Virus record (IMG/VR): IMGVR_UViG_3300032285_001947 | Span: 1-26,807 of that record | DNA length: 26,807 nt | Strand: one strand, 5' to 3' | From: a virus | In this document: positions 1 through 14,817 of the stretch, in pieces | Layout of the letters: each line of letters begins with the position of its first letter | Position numbering within the stretch: the stretch's first letter is position 1 | The notes under the pieces: model-generated | Told to the model about the DNA's origin: nothing | Databases searched by the model: none | The model's input: the letters and a program-made list of their open reading frames with translations, nothing else | Made by a program: the position numbers and the translations under genes

Positions 1-278
1 ATGGACTCAGGAGGATCTTGTAACTGAGTACCATTCATTATATCTCGGTAATCACCTTTTGGGAAGACTCCGAGTCGGCGTAGCTGTTCCGCATAATCAT
101 CAATGGCACCTTGTGCATCTTCATATATGTGCTCTAACATCTTGTGATATTGCGGAAAGTCCTTTCCCATTACAGTCCAATGGAAATTGTGTGTCTTTAG
201 GTAATAGGTAAAGTTATTACCAAAAGCTGTATAGAGTAGATCAATAGTTTGTTGTACTTGTTTAGGATCTATTTTCAT
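1..278 (-). CDS. Dps/ferritin-like protein, 3' end beyond window
   Basis: My translation gives 92 residues before the window edge. It begins MKIDPKQVQQ and holds the Dps signature HNFHWTV, then YHKMLEHIYED and AIDDYAEQLRRLG. The ferroxidase positions of Dps miniferritins are all present at the right spacing: H33, H45 (+12), E49 (+16, often Asp), D60 (+27) and E64 (+31). Family knowledge: Dps proteins form 12-subunit cages that oxidise Fe(II) with peroxide and can protect DNA. The N-terminus is short and lacks a long lysine-rich tail, so DNA binding by that route looks unlikely. The ATG overlaps the portal stop codon (TAATG), so it is probably translated by coupling and expressed late with packaging genes. 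The C-terminal helices are not visible. Family assignment is strong; its role in the phage is unknown. Confidence 0.88.
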   Translation of the reverse strand, partial: MKIDPKQVQQTIDLLYTAFGNNFTYYLKTHNFHWTVMGKDFPQYHKMLEHIYEDAQGAIDDYAEQLRRLGVFPKGDYRDIMNGTQLQDPPES

Positions 279-4881: not shown

Positions 4882-4912
4882 TTAAAGAGTTGTAAATATG
4901 GTATAGAAATGA

Positions 4913-14250: not shown

Positions 14251-14263
14251 CATTAAATACTGG

Positions 14264-14662
14264 ATGAAAAATCAAGATATAAAACAGTTTATTGAATCGG
14301 TGGCCATTATCGATAAGAAAAAGAAATGGGCCAAACCCAAGCGAGTGAAACAAATAATTGAAAATGAATTTGGCGAAGAAGAAATTATAGAAGTGATTGA
14401 AACTTCAGCAGATGAAAATAAAACATTGCCAATGGAAATTACAAAATTAAAACCTGTCAATAGATTGTGTGATCTTGGTTGTGGAGAAATTGTCACTGAT
14501 CAAATAGTTGAACGGCGTTTGGTTTTAACTCCAGAAAAACATTGGCGTACTCATTGTAGAAATTGTAGTGCATTTGTTCATCCAGATGGCATAACATTAA
14601 TCAAAGGAGCATATAGAATTCAATCTATTTTCTATGCATATTTCACTGAGCGGAATAAATAA
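14264..14662 (+). CDS. Zinc-ribbon-like protein, only plus-strand gene
   Basis: 132 residues. The N-terminal half is highly charged (KKKKWAKPKRVKQIIENEF, then GEEEIIEVIET). The C-terminal half has four cysteines in two pairs: C69/C73 in LCDLGCGEIV and C98/C101 in HWRTHCRNCSAFVHPDG, a zinc-ribbon-like layout seen in small conserved phage proteins. No clear ribosome site precedes the ATG; a TTAAATA box ends only four bases before it, so the message could have a very short leader. It is isolated: divergent from the fibre operon, convergent with the tail operon, followed by a structured RNA and a strong terminator. A regulatory or nucleic-acid-binding role is plausible but unproved. Confidence 0.78.
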   Translation: MKNQDIKQFIESVAIIDKKKKWAKPKRVKQIIENEFGEEEIIEVIETSADENKTLPMEITKLKPVNRLCDLGCGEIVTDQIVERRLVLTPEKHWRTHCRNCSAFVHPDGITLIKGAYRIQSIFYAYFTERNK

Positions 14663-14664
14663 GT

Positions 14665-14781
14665 GTGTTAGGGAGAATTGTATCTCGTCCTGTGATACAA
14701 GGTTCTGACATCGTTGGCATAACGATAAATTCTCCAGGGTTACAGCCATTACCCTTATTTCTCTGAATTTCTCCCTAACAC
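14665..14781 (+). ncRNA. Cloverleaf-shaped RNA candidate with alternative pairing
   Basis: A perfect 13-pair outer stem (GTGTTAGGGAGAA 14665-14677 with TTCTCCCTAACAC 14769-14781) closes three hairpins: TTGTATC/GATACAA (14678-14700), ATCGTT/AACGAT (14710-14726) and AGGGT/ACCCT (14736-14755). The 5' arm can instead pair GGAGAATT (14672-14679) with AATTCTCC (14728-14735), eight perfect pairs, which excludes the outer stem and the first hairpin. The outer stem is followed by CCTTTTTC and then a strong terminator. This fits a stable small RNA or a 3' regulatory switch of the 14264 gene. No known family recognised; not a tRNA. Confidence 0.6.
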
Positions 14782-14788
14782 CTTTTTC

Positions 14789-14817
14789 AAAGACTCGCTA
14801 TAAGCGGGTCTTTTTTT
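14789..14817 (+). terminator. Strong intrinsic terminator
   Basis: Stem AAAGACTCGCT/AGCGGGTCTTT (one G-U pair) with loop ATA, running straight into seven T. It ends the plus-strand unit (14264 gene and RNA candidate). Its T tract overlaps the stop codon of the minus-strand gene at 14816, so the two operons converge here; on the minus strand only three T follow the hairpin. Confidence 0.85.

Follow-up and report, generated by a model that had tools for sequence, protein, structure and literature searches.

The element at positions 14665–14781 of the window (the whole 26,807-nucleotide stretch analysed) is, on comparative grounds, a real and widely conserved noncoding RNA folding as a cloverleaf. 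It very probably belongs to an undescribed structured RNA family which is inherited as a cassette with a zinc-ribbon open reading frame (ORF). The explanation towards which we lean is a dedicated late small-RNA gene acting together with the zinc-ribbon protein. The result adds a covariation-supported family absent from Rfam and common in the sampled uncultured phages of ~30 kb, whose fixed partner gene belongs to a new zinc-ribbon family. The cassette has the following parts:

14253–14259 (+), T4-type late-promoter box TTAAATA, 4 nt ahead of the ATG of the ORF
14264–14662 (+), orphan zinc-ribbon protein of 132 aa (CxxxC...HWRTxCxNC), with invariant Cys and HW.T
14654–14661 (+), putative T4-type late promoter of the RNA, AATAAATA (−13 to −6), overlapping the stop codon of the ORF; fixed N5 spacing and genome-wide enrichment
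14665–14677 (+), P1 5′ strand of the 13-pair closing stem, paired with 14769–14781; both-side changes in 7/12 counted pairs
14667–14779 (+), predicted RNA body, the P1–P4 cloverleaf, counted from the probable +1 at G14667
14678–14700 (+), P2 hairpin, stacking straight onto P1; from the fold and conserved stem pairs
14710–14726 (+), P3 hairpin, with a UGKCA-like loop motif in most members and absent in L225
14736–14755 (+), P4 hairpin, with covariation at all 5 pairs
14741–14750 (+), P4 loop UACAGCCAUU, with the invariant GCCAU core at 14745–14749
14769–14781 (+), P1 3′ strand, partner of 14665–14677; from fold and covariation
14789–14817 (+), intrinsic terminator, an 11-bp hairpin plus T tract, read from sequence and fold

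Fold and conservation of the RNA

The minimum free energy (MFE) of 14665–14781 was −37.3 kcal/mol, while dinucleotide shuffles reached −22.4 ± 3.2 kcal/mol (z −4.7), none of 200 being as stable. Folding recovered P1, P2, P3 and P4 at the coordinates and with the pairs given by the sequence-only reading, whose description of a structured plus-strand noncoding RNA of no recognised class is borne out by the fold, by covariation and by the negative Rfam scan. The terminator which it placed downstream of the cloverleaf was likewise found by sequence and fold, and a hairpin with a T tract occupies the same position in most relatives; a simple terminator scan did not list the one at 14789–14817.

Compared with the closest relative, 110 of 113 bases of the RNA were kept, whereas identity was 85.5% in the ORF and 66% in the 3′ flank; had the RNA changed as fast as the ORF, so few differences would have P = 3e-5. 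A chance origin of the fold is excluded because the RNA is conserved above both the ORF and the 3′ flank. Three contigs with an RNA 97% identical were found by protein search with the upstream ORF. Further members came from BLASTN of gp80-neighbouring loci, a P4 motif scan, a P1 scan and a scan with a profile of the ORF family, resulting in a window-type set of 23 distinct sequences, the window included, the 22 further ones keeping the fold with compensatory changes. P1, and the GCCAU hairpin as the last main branch, are present in 23/23, with one to several hairpins in between, and fold z-scores ranged from −3.7 to −8.0 across all of them. P3 has been lost in L225; L297, a 24th sequence that keeps the box and GCCAU in a rearranged fold, stands outside this set. 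The RNA varies from 93 to 138 nt in the family and its length is not tied to a reading frame; a coding function of the region was rejected, since the lengths are not confined to multiples of three and the stems covary.

Compensatory changes, which the sequence-only reading had proposed to look for, are present in P1 and P4 well above the controls. In the alignment of the 23 sequences (A5), 94.5% of P1 and P4 pairs were standard, as against 78.1% in shuffled and 38–54% in slid controls, of which the shuffles ignore relatedness and the slid ones retain it. Both sides had changed in 12 of the 17 P1/P4 pairs; there were 62 double-changed cells (15.3 in shuffles), and the covariation score was 0.483 (0.175 shuffled). 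P1 is fully replaced in some members, from GTTAGGGAGA to GTCGGGGGATTA or GTTGTAGTGC, with the complement changed each time. The P2 stem pairs were kept in 151/153 cases over 19 different 5′ strands, a descriptive count of stems hand-picked from the MFE folds. MAFFT misaligned P2 and P3, and model R1 was therefore left out of the conclusions.

A search of the window against Rfam 15 (4227 models, phage RNAs included), also proposed at the outset, matched no known class at the gathering threshold, and a permissive search with the window and 24 relatives gave isolated sub-threshold matches only. The best weak match was the Listeria sRNA rli32 (RF01468; 22.9 bits, E 0.024), which likewise has a GGAGA...TCTCCCTAA-like closing stem with a terminator after it. 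However, its gathering score of 100 was far from reached, the inner helices do not correspond, and no other member matches it. ARAGORN found no tRNA or tmRNA genes, and among GTDB genomes a motif scan gave no true member, all matches being without the fold.

The zinc-ribbon partner

In every member, the window-type RNA has an ORF of the zinc-ribbon family immediately on its 5′ side. The ORF was present in 25 of 30 contigs chosen for their gp80 gene, a sample in which some contigs were already known carriers. Each of the 18 diverged or new copies examined has NTAAATA at the ORF stop or no more than about 20 bases from it, and a GCCAU hairpin loop downstream of the ORF. At least three architectures exist: the window type, an AGCAGGG...CCCTGTT type, and a permuted one that starts with the GCCAU hairpin. 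Most copies of the last two types share a second loop motif, GGCUGUCA.

The zinc-ribbon protein had no significant match in Pfam, PHROG or PDB. Its AlphaFold2 model was fairly confident for the zinc-ribbon region and the C-terminal helix (mean pLDDT 83, pTM 0.56); compared with PDB structures it gave no match (best E 1.3), and its matches in BFVD were uncharacterised phage proteins only. The co-inheritance of one protein gene with one structured RNA recalls type III toxin-antitoxin systems and TnpB/IscB with omegaRNA, but here no nuclease or toxin domain was found in the protein, and the RNA has a promoter box and no repeat units.

A late-promoter-like box ahead of the RNA

NTAAATAA is located at a fixed distance of five bases before the TTAG of P1 (in members found by pattern). 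The stop codon of the ORF uses this box in two frames, either AAT AAA TAA or TAA ATAA. As ATAAATAA is fixed relative to P1 while the frame of the stop changes, it must be a nucleic-acid signal; an explanation of the box as a protein-coding artefact (Asn-Lys-stop) fails on the relatives that keep it with the stop in another frame. Across 17 contigs, NTAAATA had 72 same-strand noncoding sites just upstream of genes, a 33-fold enrichment over the rest. The box agrees with the consensus of T4 late promoters, TATAAATA, which stands at −13 to −6 (PMC1524935), and the spacing, as in T4 late promoters, therefore puts the probable +1 at G14667, the first base of the P1 core. As in T4 late units, the TATAAATA-like box is at −13 to −6, strand-specific and ahead of many late genes, with no conserved −35 element (PMC2988020, PMC1524935). 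The differences are that these are non-T4 phages of ~30 kb with gp55, gp33 and gp45 unrecognised, and that the box is predicted to drive a noncoding RNA. The RNA thus seems to be the product of an autonomous late sRNA gene with its own promoter, and its transcription, as read from these signals, is likely. The sequence-only reading had overlooked this promoter box, as well as the joint conservation of the RNA and the upstream ORF.

TAAATA-N4/5-ATG precedes nearly every homologous zinc-ribbon ORF. TAAATA is also found 4 bases before the ATG of several genes (window 14253–14264, G002 5924, G004 reverse-complement strand 6480, and others), which predicts leaderless late mRNAs; the zinc-ribbon mRNA itself is predicted to be leaderless or nearly so. 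This promoter anatomy supplies exact predicted transcript ends for testing.

Other NTAAATA boxes are present on the minus strand of the window at 4882, 14194 and 24829, and throughout contigs G001–G016 the motif is sparse away from gene starts. The gp80 transcript seems to open with a short 5′ hairpin just after its late promoter (GTGCGATTCGCA-like; GATCAGAAAGATC in the window, minus strand, about 14194–14165; also G002 23804 and G012 12183), and a hairpin of this kind is conserved in relatives.

Possible function of the RNA

In the explanation that we favour, the RNA has a T4-type late promoter of its own, AATAAATA, from which transcription would start at G14667 (+1) and run to the terminator, about 14817. 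The transcript, roughly 150 nt long, would fold as a stable, single-state, multi-branched cloverleaf presenting the large P4 loop. The zinc-ribbon protein may bind the RNA, forming a late-stage ribonucleoprotein that would act in trans, and the GCCAU loop would recognise an RNA or protein target. The ribonucleoprotein part, with its binding, action in trans and target, is proposed tentatively; recognition through GCCAU is plausible. GCCAU occurs in the P4 loop of every member and the full loop is nearly invariant, usually UACAGCCAUU, thus offering one site whose mutation could probe function.

The same invariant GCCAU, exposed in a large loop whose stem covaries, would also suit an antisense sRNA that works without any protein partner: its UACAGCCAUU loop would pair with AAUGGCUGUA-like start regions (AUGGC) in mRNAs of the phage, a helper phage or the host. 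Genes of these phages commonly start with AUGGC, and complementary start regions were slightly over-represented in G002, G003 and G006 (p 0.02–0.04). However, most genomes had no significant excess, and the complementarity search over ten genomes (p 0.02–0.7) found no conserved phage target gene of the P4 loop. Moreover, the obligatory zinc-ribbon neighbour is left unexplained, and we consider this reading rather unlikely.

The constant position of the RNA immediately 3′ of the ORF could instead reflect a structure acting in cis at the 3′ end of the zinc-ribbon mRNA, either a stability element or an RNase-processed 3′UTR sRNA, with ATAAATAA as the cleavage site. Against it, ATAAATAA equals the genome-wide late-promoter motif, its spacing puts +1 at P1, and the ORF already owns a late-promoter box, so that a role in cis is unlikely.

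A role in the virion as a structural or packaging RNA, similar to that of the phi29 pRNA, with GGC and GCC loops kissing between copies, is very doubtful. The late-type promoter does sit within the structural gene module, and both RNAs are small, multi-branched phage RNAs with potentially complementary loops: GGC in the P2 or P3 loop complements the P4 loop in many members. The GGC loop is missing, however, in L182, L183, L187, L243, L280 and L296, and kissing of the P4 GCC with the P2/P3 GGC, possible in many members and missing in several, is not claimed. Furthermore, these phages have ordinary terminase genes (TerL is phrog_2 and TerS phrog_309-like), and neither a sequence nor a covariance-model match to the pRNA, nor any match to an Rfam phage RNA, was found.

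The sequence-only reading had taken the RNA for a bistable switch, and the perfect 8-pair alternative helix on which this was based, 14672–14679 GGAGAATT with 14728–14735 AATTCTCC, does exist; but when forced, it gave −28.4 kcal/mol, 8.9 above the MFE (probability about 5e-6), it was never favoured in 3′-truncated prefix folding, and alternative complementarity in the 23 members was no better than shuffled (a fraction of 0.065–0.895 of the shuffles equalled or surpassed it), so that two comparable conserved folds were not found and a switch is exceedingly improbable.

The phage lineage

Several contigs are circular permutations of one another (G001 starts and ends inside terL, G002 in a fibre gene, whilst G005 starts in terL and ends after the portal gene), which suggests complete genomes of about 29–31 kb. 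They carry genes for the head, tail and fibres and for packaging, together with an endonuclease VII homologue and a ferritin-like gene. The T4 endonuclease VII homologue (L301 4062–4427; Pfam E 3.5e-14, PHROG E 1e-30) is found in otherwise minimal genomes, and the ferritin/Dps-like gene adjoins the portal gene (window 3–278, minus strand; L301 9396–9845, with Pfam Ferritin E 8e-23 in L301). Among the ORFs searched in G001–G005 (L299–L308), a part of all ORFs, no replication or transcription genes were recognised. Likewise, gp55, gp33 and gp45 were not recognised among the part of the ORFs seen or scanned, the scan using profiles other than one for gp55.

Satellite phages encoding their own capsids are known (PMC10690885), and the gene content here recalls them. 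The lineage might consist of satellites riding on T4-like helpers, the zinc-ribbon protein and the GCCAU RNA forming a ribonucleoprotein that would act on late functions of helper or host; we regard this as distinctly unlikely. The occurrence of T4-type late promoters without recognised replication genes makes helper dependence directly testable. The cassette was also considered as a replication origin and rejected: GC-skew extremes coincide with it only in G005 and are near it in G003 (2.1 kb), an inconsistent pattern.

A related lake phage, Phage DSL-LC06 (L325, OR003941.1), has a circular genome of 29.8 kb with no annotated replication gene; the paper on this phage states replication genes in all its genomes (PMC10611076), from which the annotation of L325 differs. 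In L325, 7 of the 9 plus-strand NTAAATA sites are located just upstream of genes.
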